Positions 18,027-24,602 of a stretch of 64,000 nucleotides of DNA are shown here, in pieces (position 1 is the first letter of the stretch; every line of letters starts with the position of its first letter). This DNA is from Pseudoduganella dura (GTDB lineage: Bacteria > Pseudomonadota > Gammaproteobacteria > Burkholderiales > Burkholderiaceae_D), in the NCBI RefSeq assembly GCF_009727155.1, contig NZ_WNWM01000002.1, positions 4,712,001-4,776,000 of the forward strand, written 5' to 3'. The notes under the pieces were generated by a model. It worked only from the letters and a program-made list of their open reading frames with translations, ran no database searches and was not told the DNA's origin. Both the position numbers and the translations under genes were made by a program.

Positions 18027-18524
18027 TCAACTGCCCAGGTGACGGTGCTCGCCCACGTTGGTCGGCGGCTTGCCGGTGATGGCGGCCTTGGCCAGCGCGA
18101 ACAGCGTGACCATCTTGCTGTTGGCGGTATCCCAGTACTCGGCCGATTGCAGCTCCACGCGCAGCAGGGCCAGGTGCGGGTCGTCGAGGCCTTGCGGGAA
18201 CCATGCCTTGACGGCCGGGTTCCATAATTCTTCCGCCTTGGCACGATCGCGCAGCAATGCGGCGCGCCCCGATACCGATACATACAGATGGTCGTCGACA
18301 TCCGCGAACGACACGTTCACCGATGGGTGGCCGAGCAGTTCGCCCGTGAACGCTTCCTGGTCGGAGACGAAGAACCAGATATTGCCTTCGTTATCGAGTT
18401 GCTGGAGCGTCAGCGGGCGACTCGTCAGTGCGCCGGTGGCGTCCTGCGTGGTAAACATGCCGAATTTCACATCCTTGACGCGATCCCGCAGGTCATGCAG
18501 TTCAGTCGTGGTAAACACAGCCAT
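18027..18524 (-). CDS. pyridoxamine 5'-phosphate oxidase-fold protein (general stress protein 26-like)
   Basis: A 165-residue split-barrel flavin-binding-fold protein. The family signs are VKFGMFTTQDATGALTSRPLTLQQ (flavin phosphate region), IWFFVSDQEAF, VNVSFADVDDHLYVSVSGRAALLRDR and ELWNPAVKAWFPQG, as in the stress proteins related to pyridoxamine oxidase. It is unlikely to be PdxH; these relatives bind FMN, FAD or F420 and their reactions are mostly unknown. It reads opposite to the KGG pair and diverges from the Fur-controlled operon, with about 220 bases between the two starts. GGAGGC lies upstream of the ATG at 18524. Confidence 0.87.
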   Translation of the reverse strand: MAVFTTTELHDLRDRVKDVKFGMFTTQDATGALTSRPLTLQQLDNEGNIWFFVSDQEAFTGELLGHPSVNVSFADVDDHLYVSVSGRAALLRDRAKAEELWNPAVKAWFPQGLDDPHLALLRVELQSAEYWDTANSKMVTLFALAKAAITGKPPTNVGEHRHLGS

Positions 18525-18676
18525 GGTGCCTCCTTTTCAGTTTGTCCTGTACAAGCTTGCAGGATAACCCGGCCTGTTCCATGTCTCTGTACGCTGGCGT
18601 ACATGCACCTTTGTTGTGGGGACACGAGGGAGAATTGTTTCGTATGTAACAGGGACTCGGCCGTTGGTTGACGGCG

Positions 18677-18699
18677 CAAATGATAATCATTATCATTTG
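18677..18699. promoter_or_regulatory. Fur box ahead of the PepSY-DUF2271-DUF4198-apbE operon
   Basis: A perfect 23-base palindrome with a single-base centre, built on the core TGATAATCATTATCA (18681-18695), nearly identical to the Fur consensus of three GATAAT-type hexamers. It ends 45 bases before the GTG start of the first operon gene, where bound Fur-Fe would block transcription. Iron-limited induction of the operon is therefore expected. Confidence 0.92.
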
Positions 18700-18744
18700 T
18701 TGATTATTACAAGCATCTCATCGAAAAAAAGTGGGCGGGAAAAA

Positions 18745-19395
18745 GTGAGCAACAGGGAATCACAAGGCGCGGCAAAGCATGCCGGCCGGGCCGTCTGGCT
18801 GAAGCAACTGCACCAGTGGCACTGGATCAGTTCCGCACTGTGCCTGCTCGGCATGTTCCTGTTCAGCATCACCGGCATCACGTTGAACCATGCTTCCCAG
18901 ATCGAAGCCAAGCCCACTGTCGTGCGCAAGCAGGCCGAGGCGCCCGCCGCACTGGTGGCGCAACTGAAGGCGCTCGGCGAGGAGCGCGACGGCGAAAAGG
19001 CGCCGCTGCCCGAGGCGGCGGAGCGCTGGCTGCGCGAGACCTGGTCGGTGAAGGCCGGCGGACGCGAAGCCGAATGGTCGGCCGACGAAGTGTACCTGCC
19101 GATGCCGAAAGCGGGCGGCGATGCCTGGGTGCGCATCGGCTTCGACGACGGCGCCGCCGAATTCGAGAATACCGACCGCGGCTGGATCTCGTGGCTGAAC
19201 GATGTCCACAAGGGCCGCAATACCGGCACGGCATGGAACTGGTTCATCGACATCTTCGCCGTGATGTGCCTGGTGTTCTGCATTACCGGTTTATTGATCC
19301 TGAAATTCCACGCGGCCAACCGGCCGTTCACCTGGCCGATGGTCGGGCTGGGGATGCTGATTCCGATCGTCATTGCTCTGTTGTTCATCCATTAA
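18745..19395 (+). CDS. PepSY-associated transmembrane protein, iron-regulated
   Basis: A 216-residue inner-membrane protein of the PepSY-TM family. It has an N-terminal membrane helix (WISSALCLLGMFLFSITGIT, about residues 29-48), a periplasmic domain with WLRETW and DRGWISWLNDVHKGRNTG, a second helix (FIDIFAVMCLVFCITGLLIL) and a third at the C-terminus. The HQWHW and LNDVHKGRNTG histidines resemble heme-ligand positions of PepSY-TM ferric reductases. GTG at 18745 is chosen because it follows the GGCGGGA stretch and removes an unconserved leader; a longer reading would run through the Fur box. It probably passes electrons across the membrane for the DUF2271, ApbE and flavoreductase partners downstream. 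Confidence 0.85.
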   Translation: MSNRESQGAAKHAGRAVWLKQLHQWHWISSALCLLGMFLFSITGITLNHASQIEAKPTVVRKQAEAPAALVAQLKALGEERDGEKAPLPEAAERWLRETWSVKAGGREAEWSADEVYLPMPKAGGDAWVRIGFDDGAAEFENTDRGWISWLNDVHKGRNTGTAWNWFIDIFAVMCLVFCITGLLILKFHAANRPFTWPMVGLGMLIPIVIALLFIH

Positions 19396-19410
19396 TAAAA
19401 AAGGCTTACC

Positions 19411-19926
19411 ATGAAATTACGCTACTCCATCGCGCTCAGCATTCCGCTGGTCAGTGCGCAGGCGATGGCGGCCGACCTGGCCCTGAAACTCGATATTCCG
19501 CAGCTGAACGTGGCCGAATACCACAAGCCGTACATCGCCGCGTGGGTGGAAAACGCGGACCAGAAGGTGGTGACGAACCTGGCGGTGCTGTACGACATGA
19601 AGAAGAAGGATAACGCCGGCACGAAGTGGCTGAAGGACATGCGCCAGTGGTGGCGCAAGACTGGCCGCGACCTGGAAATGCCGGTCGACGGCGTTTCCGG
19701 CGCAACGCGCGCACCGGGCGAGCACACGCTGACATTCCCGGGCGCCAAGGATGCGCTGGGCAAGCTGCCGGCCGGCCAGTACACGGTGGTGGTCGAGGCC
19801 TCGCGCGAAGCGGGCGGCCGCGAACTGGTGAAGGTGCCGGTGGCATGGCCGCCGAAGGGCGCCAAGGAATTCGCGGCAAAAGGCAAGGAAGAGCTGGGCA
19901 ACGTGGTCGTTCAGGTCAAGCCATAA
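19411..19926 (+). CDS. DUF2271 periplasmic protein with ApbE-type flavinylation motif
   Basis: A 171-residue exported protein: signal peptide MKLRYSIALSIPLVSAQAMA (1-20), then a beta-rich domain of the DUF2271 family with KPYIAAWVENADQ and TKWLKDMRQWWRKTGRD. At residues 93-99 it reads D-G-V-S-G-A-T, matching the D-g-x-s/t-g/s-A-T site where ApbE attaches FMN to Thr in NqrC/RnfG-type proteins. Thr99 is the predicted acceptor, and the ApbE gene lies two genes downstream. This suggests a covalent FMN redox carrier in the periplasm that takes electrons from the PepSY membrane protein. The family match is firm; the flavinylation is inferred from motif plus operon. Confidence 0.87.
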   Translation: MKLRYSIALSIPLVSAQAMAADLALKLDIPQLNVAEYHKPYIAAWVENADQKVVTNLAVLYDMKKKDNAGTKWLKDMRQWWRKTGRDLEMPVDGVSGATRAPGEHTLTFPGAKDALGKLPAGQYTVVVEASREAGGRELVKVPVAWPPKGAKEFAAKGKEELGNVVVQVKP

Positions 19927-19935
19927 GGAGACATC

Positions 19936-20766
19936 ATGAAAATTCAAAAAACCCTGATCGCGCTGGCACTGGCCGGTGCCGCGTTCGGCGCCCAGGCGCA
20001 CAAGCCCTGGATGCTGCCGTCGTCCACCTTCGTCGAGAACGACCGGGAAGCATGGGTGACGGTCGACGCCGCCATCTCGGAAGGCCTGTTCGACATCGAC
20101 CACGTGCCGCTGAAACTGGACGGCCTGACGATCATCGGCCCGGACGGCGCCACGCTGCAGCCTGAAAACGTGGCCAACGGCAAGCTGCGCAATTCGTTCG
20201 ACGTGAAGATGGCCAAGAACGGTACCTACAAGATCGCGCTGGTGAACCAGAACGTGATGGCGAGCTGGAAGGTCAACGGTGAAACGAAGCGCTGGCGCGG
20301 CATCGAAGCGAACATGGCCAAGGAAGTGCCGGCCGATGCCCAGGAACTGAAGGTGACGCGTACCAGCAGCCGCATCGAAACGTTCGTCACGGCCAACGAG
20401 GCCAGCGACGCGGTACTGAAACCGACCGGCAGCGGGCTGGAACTGGTGCCGGTGACCAACCCGACCGAGCTGCGCGCCGGCGAGAAAGCCACGTGGCGCT
20501 TCCTGGTCGACGGCAAGCCGGCCGCGAACCTGCCGTTCAGCCTGATTCCGGGCGGCGTGCGCTACCGCGGCACGCTGAACGAAGTGCGCTTCAATACCGA
20601 TGCCAAGGGCGAGATCACGTTCACGATCCCGGCCGCCGGCATGTACGTGGCGACGGCCAGCTGGCCGGCGGCCCAGGCGCCGGGCGGCCAGCAGGGCGGC
20701 CAGCCGCAGCAGCCGCCGGCGCGCCGCGTGACCTACTCGGGCACGGTGGAAGTGCTGCCCGAGTAA
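19936..20766 (+). CDS. DUF4198 domain-containing periplasmic protein
   Basis: A 276-residue exported protein with signal peptide MKIQKTLIALALAGAAFGAQA followed by HKPWMLPSSTFVEN, the His-containing N-terminus typical of DUF4198 (NikK/CbiK-like metal-associated proteins). The middle has ELVPVTNPTELRAGEKATWRF and the C-terminal beta-sandwich has GVRYRGT and EITFTIPAAGMYVATA. The tail is rich in Gly, Gln and Pro (QAPGGQQGGQPQQPPA). Members are linked to metal uptake; here the context is iron. The gene is nine bases after DUF2271, and its TAA overlaps the apbE ATG (TAATG). Confidence 0.86.
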   Translation: MKIQKTLIALALAGAAFGAQAHKPWMLPSSTFVENDREAWVTVDAAISEGLFDIDHVPLKLDGLTIIGPDGATLQPENVANGKLRNSFDVKMAKNGTYKIALVNQNVMASWKVNGETKRWRGIEANMAKEVPADAQELKVTRTSSRIETFVTANEASDAVLKPTGSGLELVPVTNPTELRAGEKATWRFLVDGKPAANLPFSLIPGGVRYRGTLNEVRFNTDAKGEITFTIPAAGMYVATASWPAAQAPGGQQGGQPQQPPARRVTYSGTVEVLPE

Positions 20767-21779
20767 TGCGCCGGGTTCTGCTGCCGCACGCGATTTCGCC
20801 CGGGCCGGCGCCGTCCGGTTCGGGCGTGCACGACTATCGCGGCCTCAGCATGGGCACGAGCTGGTCGGCGCGGGTGGCGCACGCCGGCGCCGCGCCGCAC
20901 TTGCCGGATGACCTGCACGCCGGCCTGCAGGCCCGGCTGGACGACGTGGTGGCGCAGATGAGCCACTGGGAGCCCGGCTCGGACCTGGGCCGTTTCAACC
21001 GCGCGCCGGCCGGCACCTGGCAGGTGCTGCCGCCGGCGTTCTTCCATGTACTGGCCTATGCGCTCGATGTCTGGCGCGATACGGCCGGCGCATGCGATCC
21101 GTGCGCCGGCGCGCTGGTGAACCTGTGGGGCTTCGGCCCCGTCAACCGTTACGATGAGCCGGGCTTCACGGTGCCGACGGCGGAGCAGGCGCAAGCCGCG
21201 CTGCCGGTCGCGCGCGTGCGGCTCGACCCCGTCAGCCGCAGCGCGCTGCAGCCGGGCGGCGTGCAGCTGGACCTGTCCGCGGTGGCCAAGGGCTACGGTG
21301 TCGACTGCCTGGCACGCTGGCTGGAAGAGCAGGGCGTGCGCGACTACCTGGTGGAAGTGGGCGGCGAACTGCGCGGCGCCGGCCTCAAGCCGGATGGCCA
21401 GCCGTGGTGGGTGGCGCTGGAGGGCGTGGACGATGCCCCGGCCGGCGGTGACGGCATCGTCGCCGCGCTGCATGGCCTGGCGGTCGCCACGTCCGGCGAC
21501 TATCGCCGCTACTTCCTGCACGACGGGCAGCGCCGGCCGCACACGATCGATCCGCGCAGCGGCATGCCGATCGACAACGGCCTGGCGTCCGTGACCGTGG
21601 TCGACGGCAGTTGCATGGCTTGCGACGCCTGGTCGACCGCGCTGACCGTGCTGGGCCTGGAGGATGGCCTGGCGCTGGCGGAGCGGCGCGGCATCGCGGC
21701 CCGCTTCGTGGTGCGCACCGACCGCGGACCCGTTGAACACCTGAGCTCGCACATGCGGGCGATGCTGGAGCAGGCATGA
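20766..21779 (+). CDS. apbE: FAD:protein FMN transferase ApbE
   Basis: ApbE splits FAD and links FMN to a Thr of exported proteins. The 337-residue product has the start motif YRGLSMGTSWSARV (about residues 26-39), CDPCAGALVNLWGFGP, LDLSAVAKGYGVDCLARWL, the metal-binding EVGGELRGAG, and the C-terminal HTIDPRSGMPIDN with DAWSTALTVLG. No clear lipobox or Sec signal is seen at the chosen ATG, which overlaps the preceding stop by one base; the enzyme may therefore be exported differently or start elsewhere. Its most likely client is the DUF2271 protein, which carries the acceptor motif. Confidence 0.92.
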   Translation: MRRVLLPHAISPGPAPSGSGVHDYRGLSMGTSWSARVAHAGAAPHLPDDLHAGLQARLDDVVAQMSHWEPGSDLGRFNRAPAGTWQVLPPAFFHVLAYALDVWRDTAGACDPCAGALVNLWGFGPVNRYDEPGFTVPTAEQAQAALPVARVRLDPVSRSALQPGGVQLDLSAVAKGYGVDCLARWLEEQGVRDYLVEVGGELRGAGLKPDGQPWWVALEGVDDAPAGGDGIVAALHGLAVATSGDYRRYFLHDGQRRPHTIDPRSGMPIDNGLASVTVVDGSCMACDAWSTALTVLGLEDGLALAERRGIAARFVVRTDRGPVEHLSSHMRAMLEQA

Positions 21780-21845
21780 AGGGGCAGGCACGAAGGCGCC
21801 GGCATCCATGCTCGAGCATGAATAATCCAGCATGAACATTTCCGC

Positions 21846-23198
21846 ATGATTTTGACGAACGATACGGCCCGGCTGGCGCTGACCGCCGCCTGCTTCGCCG
21901 CGTATGGCGTCACCTGTTTCCTGCCATGGCTGCGCACGCGCCGCAAGCGTGCCGCCATGGCCGCCGCAGGCGATGCTGCCGGATGGATCGTCGCCTATGC
22001 AAGCCAGACCGGCAACGGCGAGGAACTCGCGCAGCAGACCGCGGCCACGCTGCGGCTGGCCGGTATCGGCGTGCGGGTGATCGAGCTGGGCGATGTGACC
22101 GCCGCCGCGCTGCAGGGTGCGGAACGGGCGCTGTTCATCGCCAGCACGTACGGCGAAGGCGATGCGCCCGATGGCGGCGCCGCATTCGCCGGCAAGCTGA
22201 TGACACGCCCGTTGCCGCTGCCGCGGCTGCATTACGGCGTGCTGGCGCTCGGCGACAGCAGCTATGCGCATTTCTGCGGGTTCGGCCGCGCGCTGGACGC
22301 TTGGCTGAGCGCCCAAGGCGCGCAGCCGCTGTTTCCCCGCGTGGAAGTGGACCGCGGCGCGACGGCCGACCTGGCGCCGTGGCGCCAGCACCTGTCGCAC
22401 CTGGCCGGCACCAGCGATGCGCCGGACTGGGAAGCGCCGGCGTTCACGCCGTGGCGCCTGGCGGAGCGGCGGCTGATGAATCCGGGCAGCGCCGGCGGCG
22501 CCGTCTTCCATATCGAACTGGAACCCGTTGCCGGTGCGTTGCCGGCCTGGCAGTCGGGCGACCTGGTGCAGGTGGCGCCGCCGGCGCAGCCGGACCGGCC
22601 GCGCGAGTACTCGATCGCGTCGGTGCCGGGCGATGGCCGGGTCCACCTGCTGGTGCGCTTGCACCAGCACGCCGACGGCAGCGCCGGCATCGCTTCCGGC
22701 TGGCTGTGCGGCGAGGCCGCCGTCGGCGAACCCGTGCCGCTGCGGCTGCGCCAGCACCGCCGCTTCCGGCTCGAAGGCAATGCGGCGCGGCCACTGATCC
22801 TGATCGGCAACGGCAGCGGCCTCGCCGGGTTGCGCGGCCACTTGCGCGCGCGCGCTGCCGCCGGGCAGGGCCGCAACTGGCTGCTGTTCGGCGAACGCCA
22901 GCGCGCCCACGACCTGCACTATGGCGACGAGCTGGCAACGTGGCAGGAACAGGGGCGGCTCGAACGGCTCGACCTGGCCTTCTCGCGCGATGGCGGCGAG
23001 CGCATGTACGTGCAGGACCTGCTGCCGCCCGCCGCGGGCACGCTGCGCGCGTGGATCGCCGACGGCGCCGCGATCTATGTCTGCGGCAGCCTGGAAGGCA
23101 TGGCCGGCGGCGTCGACCGCGCGCTGCGCGAGATCCTCGGCGACGGCACCGTCGATGCGCTGGCGACCGAAGGCCGCTACCGGCGCGACGTGTACTGA
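21846..23198 (+). CDS. membrane-anchored flavodoxin/NADPH reductase (sulfite reductase flavoprotein-like)
   Basis: A 450-residue diflavin reductase. An N-terminal membrane helix (about residues 8-29) and the positive RTRRKRAA precede a flavodoxin domain (YASQTGNGEELA, STYGEGDAPDGG, ALGDSSYAHFCG). A ferredoxin-NADP reductase module follows (REYSIASVPGDG for FAD, GNGSGLAGLRGHL and FGERQRAHDLHYGDEL for NADPH, YVCGSLEGM). It should move electrons from NADPH via FAD and FMN towards the membrane, supplying the PepSY/DUF2271 branch. No good Shine-Dalgarno precedes the ATG at 21846; a 14-base palindrome (CATGCTCGAGCATG, 21807-21820) lies just upstream. Last gene of the Fur-controlled operon. Confidence 0.88.
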   Translation: MILTNDTARLALTAACFAAYGVTCFLPWLRTRRKRAAMAAAGDAAGWIVAYASQTGNGEELAQQTAATLRLAGIGVRVIELGDVTAAALQGAERALFIASTYGEGDAPDGGAAFAGKLMTRPLPLPRLHYGVLALGDSSYAHFCGFGRALDAWLSAQGAQPLFPRVEVDRGATADLAPWRQHLSHLAGTSDAPDWEAPAFTPWRLAERRLMNPGSAGGAVFHIELEPVAGALPAWQSGDLVQVAPPAQPDRPREYSIASVPGDGRVHLLVRLHQHADGSAGIASGWLCGEAAVGEPVPLRLRQHRRFRLEGNAARPLILIGNGSGLAGLRGHLRARAAAGQGRNWLLFGERQRAHDLHYGDELATWQEQGRLERLDLAFSRDGGERMYVQDLLPPAAGTLRAWIADGAAIYVCGSLEGMAGGVDRALREILGDGTVDALATEGRYRRDVY

Positions 23199-23234
23199 GC
23201 CAGCTACAAGCCCAGGCGCCAGACGCAGCAAGGT

Positions 23235-23346
23235 GTAGCAAATCCACAACGGGACAGTCCGGATCGCCGGACCGCCCAACTTTTTACAACGCAGCAAATC
23301 CACAACAGGGACAGCCGGATCGCCGGACCGCCCCATTTTATACAAC
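23235..23346. repeat. two tandem copies of a 56-base intergenic repeat with internal hairpin
   Basis: Copy one is 23235-23290 and copy two 23291-23346. Each begins G-T/C-AGCAAATCCACAAC, contains a hairpin formed by CCGG-ATCG-CCGG and ends in a T-rich stretch plus ACAAC. The copies differ at a few positions and by compensating one-base indels. The hairpin plus T run may help terminate the flavoreductase transcript. Origin unknown; no coding capacity. Confidence 0.75.
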
Positions 23347-23359
23347 GCTTCCGCTGGGC

Positions 23360-23385
23360 AAAAAAAGCCCCGCGCGAGGCGGGGC
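23360..23385 (-). terminator. rho-independent terminator of the hemP-DUF2325 unit
   Basis: On the minus strand a GCCCCGC/GCGGGGC stem with a five-base loop is followed by seven T. It lies 33 bases after the DUF2325 stop. Confidence 0.88.
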
Positions 23386-23417
23386 CGGGAAATTCCGCGA
23401 GGAGGCGGATGAGAGGT

Positions 23418-24602
23418 TCAGGGCGTCAGTTCCTCGAGCCCGCGCTGCAGGCTGGAGATGCTGGGGTTTTCGATGAACACGCATTGCTTGCCGGTGCGCT
23501 TGCAGAAATCCTTGACGCGCCAGTAGGCGCTGTGGCTGATGCAGCCCGTCTGGCAGATCACCAGGTCGGCCGCGGCGAGGCTGGCCTCGAGCTTGCCCGC
23601 GTTGTCTTCCAGGCCGCCGTCGTGGTGGGCGAACTGGGCACCGGCCCGTTCGATCAGCGTGCGGTAGGAAGCCACGTTGCCGCTGCGTCCGCCCACGCAC
23701 AGGATGCTGCGTTCGGCCAGCCGGATCGGCATCCGGACCACGTGCTCGACCACCTTGGCGGCCTGCATGGGTTCGTCGTCGCGCACCGGACTTTGTGCCT
23801 GCGCCTGCGCCTGGGCTTGCGCAAGTTCACGCCGCAGTTCGGCCACCTGTTCGCGCAGCAGCCGCTCGCGCTCGTCGCTTTGGGCGAGCCGCTGCGTCAG
23901 CCGCTCGCGCGACGGCAGATCCGGGATGGCTTCGCGCAACCCCTCCAGTTCCAGGCGCAGCGCATCGATCGTGCTGTCGCGGTTGACCAGCTGGGCGCGC
24001 AATTGCATCAGCATGCCGGCATGGCGTTCCTGTTCGGCCGTGCGCTCGAGCTGCACGGCGGCACTGCGGTGCTGCACCTTCGCCAGTTCGCGCGCCAGTT
24101 GTCCGTTTTCCTCGACCACCGCGTTGAAGCGGGTGATGTCGGCCCGCACGCAGGCACCGGCCTGGTGCTGGATCATGTGCAGGTCGCGGCACATGCGTTC
24201 TTCCAGCTCGGGCGCGCAGCGGGGATGCGTCAGGCCGGCCCAGAATGCGCCGGCCACGTCGCCACCGGCGACCGCGGCCTGCCACAGCTCGGCCACGCCG
24301 TCCGTCGTGCGCGCGGCGCGGAAGCGCCCGATCACCACCGCATAGCGGCGTTCGAGTTCCTTCTGCAGGCTTTCGGATAACCGGTTGCGCGTGCCGCATT
24401 CGCTGACCGCGCCGACGTGGATCTCGTAATCGTCCGCGATCACCTTGCCGCCGGTAACCTTGCCGACCAGCTTGCGCAACGTGCCGATGGGCAGCGATAC
24501 GCCCACCAGCGGGCAGTGGCAGGTATGGCCCAGTTCCCAGATGCGGCGCCGGCGCGATGCCTGCGCTTCCTGCGGCGGCGTGGCCGCGTGCTTGTCGCAC
24601 AT
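23418..24602 (-). CDS. DUF2325 domain-containing protein
   Basis: A 394-residue cytoplasmic protein. The N-terminal part has a CxC-containing segment (GHTCHCPLVGVSLP) and a helical region to about residue 150; the middle is a long coiled coil (about 155-270, rich in Leu, Glu, Gln and Arg). The C-terminal DUF2325 domain reads SILCVGGRSGNVASYR, HDGGLEDN, ADLVICQTGCISHSAYW and CVFIENPSISSL. The molecular role of the family is unknown to me; the conserved Cys and His could bind metal. It is in one unit with hemP and a small gene behind a Fur-like site. A GTG two codons upstream (24608) overlaps the previous stop and is an alternative start. Confidence 0.82.
   Translation of the reverse strand: MCDKHAATPPQEAQASRRRRIWELGHTCHCPLVGVSLPIGTLRKLVGKVTGGKVIADDYEIHVGAVSECGTRNRLSESLQKELERRYAVVIGRFRAARTTDGVAELWQAAVAGGDVAGAFWAGLTHPRCAPELEERMCRDLHMIQHQAGACVRADITRFNAVVEENGQLARELAKVQHRSAAVQLERTAEQERHAGMLMQLRAQLVNRDSTIDALRLELEGLREAIPDLPSRERLTQRLAQSDERERLLREQVAELRRELAQAQAQAQAQSPVRDDEPMQAAKVVEHVVRMPIRLAERSILCVGGRSGNVASYRTLIERAGAQFAHHDGGLEDNAGKLEASLAAADLVICQTGCISHSAYWRVKDFCKRTGKQCVFIENPSISSLQRGLEELTP

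Follow-up and report, generated by a model that had tools for sequence, protein, structure and literature searches.

A candidate Fur-controlled operon of Pseudoduganella dura pairs an ApbE without export leader with an exported DUF2271 protein

Described flavinylation clusters and the operon of P. dura

Clusters that combine PepSY proteins with DUF2271 and DUF4198 proteins have been described and linked to iron (eLife 2021, PMC8238504), and the same study reports that the DUF2271 protein of A. ursilacus is flavinylated by its cognate ApbE, that the modification is lost on a Thr to Ala change, and that co-expression of a signal-less DUF2271 protein with ApbE in E. coli yields flavinylated DUF2271. 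In Caulobacter, CC3059-63 responds to iron and Fur by array, its promoter having been studied by lacZ fusion and gel shift (BMC Genomics 2013, PMC3751524), and mutants in CCNA_03155-03159 show fitness defects in ethylenediaminetetraacetic acid (EDTA), which lowers cell iron (PMC11870441, 2025). Here we analysed a 64,000-nucleotide stretch of Pseudoduganella dura DNA (contig NZ_WNWM01000002.1, positions 4,712,001 to 4,776,000; ‘the window’), in which five closely packed genes on one strand lie behind a Fur palindrome and encode PepSY_TM_like_2, DUF2271, DUF4198, ApbE and flavodoxin/FNR proteins. Because the three studies anticipate flavinylated DUF2271/PepSY clusters, Fur control and the EDTA phenotype, the core of this finding is not new; what is new relative to the literature is an ApbE devoid of a leader set against an exported DUF2271 target, the remainder being largely published. 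The features are as follows (window coordinates).

18677..18699, no strand: perfect 23-bp palindrome (11-1-11) with an exact 15-base Fur box, found by eye and pattern scan
18668..18696, + strand: sigma-70-like promoter, TTGACG-17-TATCAT, a consensus match only
18745..19395, + strand: PepSY_TM_like_2 membrane protein, proposed transmembrane haem relay (PF16357, E=2e-82; GTG start)
19411..19926, + strand: exported DUF2271 protein, proposed flavin mononucleotide (FMN) acceptor Thr99 in DGVSGAT (PF10029, E=1e-50)
19936..20766, + strand: exported DUF4198 protein with His at the mature start (AQA|HKPW), proposed metal-binding partner (PF10670, E=2e-52)
20766..21779, + strand: flavin transferase ApbE, lacking an export signal (N-terminus MRRVLLP...MGTSW; PF02424, E=2e-77), its start overlapping the stop of the DUF4198 gene
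21846..23198, + strand: CysJ-like diflavin reductase (flavodoxin plus FNR) with a single membrane anchor at its N-terminus, seen by eye (PF00258, PF00175 (NAD_binding_1))

By composition this is a PepSY-like flavinylation system: a PF16357 gene (PF03929 would serve equally) is clustered with ApbE and DUF2271 (FMN-bind or DUF3570 being the other recognized partners), a target gene product, DUF2271, begins with what hydropathy and inspection by eye (not SignalP) suggest is a signal peptide (a lipidation site would serve equally), and DUF2271 has the [S/T]GA[S/T] acceptor motif as SGAT at residues 96-99. The operon shares its domains, the DUF2271 motif and an inferred role in iron reduction with the clusters of PMC8238504, from which it differs in that the donor is a separate anchored diflavin reductase and the ApbE leaderless, a property of such clusters that is not discussed in the available parts of that article. 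Caulobacter CC_3059-3063, from another bacterial class, has a Fur-bound promoter and a first gene called a transporter, after which DUF2271, DUF4198, ApbE and a sulfite-reductase-type flavoprotein come in the order seen here (PMC3751524).

We read the operon, at a probability of roughly 60%, as a Fur-repressed PepSY-type flavinylation system with cytosolic FMN attachment, a haem route through the PepSY protein and iron reduction. Under iron limitation Fur would leave the promoter and the five proteins would be made; the leaderless ApbE would move FMN from cytosolic flavin adenine dinucleotide (FAD) onto Thr99 of the DUF2271 precursor while still in the cytosol, and the flavinylated precursor would then be exported by Sec and fold in the periplasm. 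Electrons from reduced nicotinamide adenine dinucleotide (phosphate), NAD(P)H, would enter the FAD and then the FMN of the anchored diflavin reductase, cross the membrane through a PepSY haem with histidine ligands and arrive at the FMN on DUF2271, which would pass them on to ferric iron or one of its chelates, with DUF4198 binding metal near that step. DUF2271 flavinylation, Fur binding, the EDTA fitness effect and metal binding by DUF4198 have been demonstrated by others in relatives; the haem, the order of electron transfer, the timing of flavinylation and iron as acceptor we infer. The operon is of a known and widely shared iron-controlled five-gene type, which probably takes electrons from the cell interior to iron beyond the inner membrane, a compact kit for supplying the periplasm under iron starvation.

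The leaderless ApbE and its exported target

The motif DGVSGAT occupies residues 93-99 of DUF2271, where the initial annotation had placed it, and was the sole match to a loose flavinylation pattern among the five operon proteins, so that another operon protein as ApbE target was rejected. A chance motif was likewise rejected, as every one of 36 aligned rows has Thr (33) or Ser (3) at the position of Thr99; an additional list of divergent DUF2271 proteins was selected by the motif and cannot serve to test its conservation. The protein starts with MKLRYSIALSIPLVSAQAMA|AD, which resembles a signal peptide by hydropathy and by eye (not SignalP). Export by the twin-arginine translocation (Tat) system was discarded, since a strict RR pattern, which leaves out Cupriavidus rows starting MRRLL, gave an RR-like match in 1/115. 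In far clusters with ApbE the signal peptide of DUF2271 was less hydrophobic than that of DUF4198 in 17/17 cases, compared with 9/12 in far clusters without ApbE (Mann-Whitney p 0.01; rows missing either protein or an ATG start were dropped, and the difference was noticed post hoc in rows that share descent). Such weaker hydrophobicity fits a slower, post-translational export.

The operon ApbE covers its PF02424 domain in full (positions 1-265 of 266, 260.9 bits), as expected of a flavin transferase, and has neither the N-terminal export signal nor the lipobox of exported ApbE/Ftp lipoproteins. Leaders were scored as the best charge-free 11-residue mean hydropathy within the first 32 residues (named loci) or 40 residues (other sets), allowing every in-frame start at most ~75 codons ahead of the MGT motif and setting the cut at 2.0; by this measure E. 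coli Ftp, the positive control, reached 2.96 and the operon ApbE only 0.81, with no hydrophobic leader. Among the named loci (the best 80 of at least 561), ApbE was present in 77/80 and below the cut in 74/77, and the ApbEs of divergent-class clusters that were checked were leaderless in 6/6.

A broader sample of 79 ApbEs was then compared, made up of 86 loci less eight with a late Pfam match start and L268 with an in-frame stop, plus L001 and L002; it comprises the best-scoring ApbE matches per search rather than a random draw. It divides into 17 operon-linked ApbEs (L267, L297 and L308 being assigned by their diflavin neighbour alone, of which L308 is the cluster of L069 and has DUF2271), four DUF3570-linked and 58 others. 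Leaders above 2.0 were found in 0/17 operon-linked, 0/4 DUF3570-linked (one at 1.85) and 49/58 other ApbEs, and at a cut of 1.8 in 0/17, 1/4 and 51/58, respectively; Fisher's p for the 17 against the 58 was 1e-10, uncorrected for relatedness in rows that share descent. Four of the nine others under the cut (L274, L275, L276, L282) look by eye like Tat leaders. In a tree the 17 operon-linked ApbEs fell into two groups within one branch that also holds leader-bearing relatives, and the DUF3570-linked ones lay in a separate branch. The four sampled DUF3570-linked ApbEs, L304 at 1.85 among them, form with three others one branch without clear leaders.

Whole genomes gave a similar picture. In five-gene-operon genomes (19 five-gene-type clusters with ApbE from the phylum set, plus P. 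dura itself), the operon copy was the sole ApbE found in 18/20, and the operon copies were all below the cut except that of G186 (L344). The two exceptions to a sole ApbE are G213, whose second ApbE has a late match start and is not cleanly readable, and P. dura, whose second copy (L072:7918-8826, on C2 at ~5.81 Mb) lies beside a DUF3570 gene and is also leaderless. No FMN_bind protein was found in the P. dura genome, nor any ApbE beyond these two copies. In the phylum set, 14 clusters had no apbE in the stretch fetched, and their genomes held an unlinked ApbE in 14/14, above the cut in 13 and at 1.84 with a lipobox in G185, which we count in favour of our reading. The interpretation given in the initial annotation is partly supported. 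It had overlooked the missing signal peptide and treated ApbE as a routine case of the NqrC/RnfG type, and this view is not sustained with a leaderless enzyme, an exported target and no FMN_bind protein found; its other main elements, namely a covalently bound FMN in DUF2271, control by Fur and a route from the reductase through PepSY, are well supported by published homologues.

Several observations weigh against cytosolic attachment. Leaders were called by hydropathy and not by SignalP, and some operon-linked ApbEs approach or pass its cut: L115, L121 and L160 exceed 2.0 through a VLVPLAI-type proline stretch, the copy of G186 scores 2.13 and also contains proline (none of these four has a clear cleavage site by eye), and L334 reaches 1.92. 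The A. ursilacus apbE construct is called signal peptide-truncated in the methods of PMC8238504, so that this ApbE may be exported. In clusters without apbE, DUF2271 is presumably served by an exported ApbE, which would mean that attachment in the cytosol is not universal. G118 and G122 hold a leaderless cluster ApbE together with a leader-bearing one, so that the two kinds can coexist and do not simply replace each other. Finally, in a natural fusion (L223:1488-2963, also L353), ApbE and DUF2271 form one protein, followed by PepSY_TM_like_2, and its start is signal-peptide-like, implying that both parts are exported together there.

That fusion, which looks exported as a single chain, would suit an explanation in which the operon ApbE, although leaderless, is exported in a manner that its sequence does not reveal and modifies DUF2271 in the periplasm. 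We regard this as distinctly unlikely, given the absence of a leader, by our rule, in all 17 operon-linked ApbEs of the sample and the in-frame stops that lie one to four codons before the conserved apbE start in several relatives, where no hidden leader can therefore exist. Exported DUF2271 seems to receive its flavin on either side of the membrane: from a periplasmic ApbE in genomes whose cluster lacks apbE, and from a leaderless ApbE where the operon carries one.

Cytosolic attachment bears on the wider question of how FMN gets onto exported proteins. The available text of a review (PMC12052999) names cytosolic ApbEs only for non-exported targets, calls the delivery of FAD obscure and mentions neither DUF nor PepSY. 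The Klebsiella cytosolic ApbE treated there has no signal peptide, like ours, but its target is the soluble fumarate reductase whereas ours is exported; a paper cited by the review concerns, by its title, localization-controlled specificity in Klebsiella, to which the P. dura operon would be an exception if our reading holds. In the published literature that we searched, a leaderless operon ApbE paired with an exported DUF2271 target was not found described. We lean, with some reserve, towards regarding DUF2271 proteins, and perhaps DUF3570 proteins, as a class of exported flavoproteins that receive FMN in the cytosol from a leaderless ApbE and pass through Sec as unfolded precursors. If so, the rule that ApbE and its working target share a compartment would be broken, and periplasmic flavin electron transfer would be possible without FAD export, because FAD need not reach the periplasm when FMN is attached before Sec export. 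Lineages in which the sole ApbE found is leaderless and the flavoprotein exported offer a direct test case, which would imply that a covalent-flavin protein passes the Sec channel, and the clusters without apbE whose genomes carry a leader-bearing ApbE elsewhere would be the natural control.

The Fur site, the electron route and the metal

The initial annotation had noted a near-consensus Fur palindrome at 18677; the site indeed starts there and is a perfect palindrome, whose core, TGATAATCATTATCA at 18681-18695, matches exactly the 7-1-7 pattern of the Fur consensus. A scan allowing up to three mismatches gave nothing else in the window (0.20 expected), and no second perfect match exists in the 6.95-Mb genome, where up to two mismatches gave 11 Fur-like sites versus 2 with a reversed control pattern. 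Seven of the ten other sites were inspected; TonB receptors adjoin three of them and a siderophore-interacting protein one (family search was run on those four genes only). The TTGACG-17-TATCAT pair was the sole promoter-like site in 18500-23450 (0.3 expected), and it overlaps the box, as is seen in members of the Fur regulon. DUF2271, ApbE and PepSY genes also co-occurred in the loci fetched around strong DUF2271 matches, which kept the five-gene order in 35/35 (34 from the same genus and G060 from another family), with a perfect box in 31/35: it was perfect in 31/34 same-genus loci, with two mismatches in the remaining 3, and had three mismatches in G060. Together with the literature on relatives, the box lends support to the annotated Fur control of the operon.

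The predicted model of the PepSY protein (pLDDT, the predicted local distance difference test, 85) shows three long helices with a single periplasmic domain. Its His23, 26, 49, 155, 189 and 216 are conserved in 90, 108, 99, 109, 97 and 103 of 109 rows, which makes a haem relay likely; these six candidate ligands lie near both membrane faces. The idea that His189 is lost where the diflavin gene is missing proved only partly true. FoxB (7ABW), a PepSY protein with transmembrane His and a proposed haem relay to the periplasm, offers a likeness, although the four transmembrane helices and two PepSY domains of such dihaem siderophore reductases (PMC8891985) are not those of our model; two bis-His haem sites are a further mark of that type. 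The fold match is weak: 7abw_A came first in Foldseek with an E of 0.025 and a TM score of 0.26, and FoxB was not among the matches listed in a second structure search with the PepSY model. Sequence searches of the PDB with the PepSY protein and with DUF2271 gave no match.

On the donor side, the diflavin reductase scored 238 bits against TIGR01931 cysJ, below the family cut-off of 668. A direct link between such a reductase and PepSY is provided by a natural fusion in the divergent DUF2271 class (L069), in which PepSY_TM, flavodoxin and NAD-binding parts form one protein of 743 aa between DUF2271 and ApbE; further divergent-class loci have a long open frame matching reductase (family search on L069 only). 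This fusion supports the first step of the route annotated initially, in which electrons leave the diflavin reductase for PepSY and then reach DUF2271; that route is also well supported by literature homologues. It likewise argues, as do the histidines near both membrane faces and the description of VciB (PMC8238504) and FoxB (PMC12424826) as reductases, against the PepSY protein being an iron or siderophore permease instead of an electron relay; work on Alteromonas has put forward a siderophore permease function for PepSY_TM proteins (PMC7190382), but we hold that role here to be very improbable.

DUF4198 is probably a metal-binding partner near the reductase. His directly follows the predicted signal peptidase site in 109/111 rows, our protein included, and the model (pLDDT 86.5) shares its fold with metal-bound structures, namely 9mhm_B of the Zcp entries (E 2e-13) and 9gcb_A (E 1e-8). 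A 2-His-1-Asp site was considered and dropped, since the His at precursor position 56 is present in 90/111 rows and missing in 21. The closest solved relatives, PDB 9mhi-9mho, bear the title Zcp, and some of them contain Cu, Zn or Co; their molecule name is phosphoribosylglycinamide formyltransferase. The Ideonella sakaiensis DUF4198 protein is secreted, has an N-terminal His, with His18 as a second His ligand, and binds Ni, which stabilises it most (PMC12537917). Structures of this fold occur with Ni, Zn, Co or Cu, and iron is not the sole possible metal. These metals, and the support of haem-copper oxidases by the PepSY_TM protein CrpH (PMC13038864), would agree with an operon that is merely iron-regulated and acts on chelates of Cu, Ni or Zn or on another periplasmic acceptor. 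We consider this unlikely in view of the Fur box, of Fur control in Caulobacter (PMC3751524) and of the harm that insertions in the Caulobacter operon do when EDTA lowers the iron content of its cells (PMC11870441), and we retain iron as the putative acceptor.

Distribution and variants of the cluster

The five-gene content behind the Fur site, as annotated, was confirmed by Pfam matches and recurs widely: all five genes stood in order in 73/80 named loci, DUF2271 was present in 35/36 same-genus relatives (one of them, G033, with the divergent class only) and it scored above cut-off in 43/299 genomes of the phylum, P. dura included. A Vogesella cluster (L140:4239-5438) keeps DUF2271, DUF4198, ApbE and the reductase, with no PepSY gene matched in the stretch fetched, and the same was seen in L117 and L137. 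In the divergent DUF2271 class (L068-L071, L073, L074, L224-L230) the motif is of the SGAS or TGAS type and the reductase frame is long; most of its loci, not L229, also include ApbE in the stretch fetched, and some host genomes hold the five-gene type as well. The genome-wide ApbE search for this class covered the phylum set, outside which lie G006, G019, G026, G033, G034 and G056 from the relatives search. Lastly, an antisense open frame of 870 aa (window 20733-23345, - strand) runs over apbE and the reductase gene and is probably an effect of high G+C.

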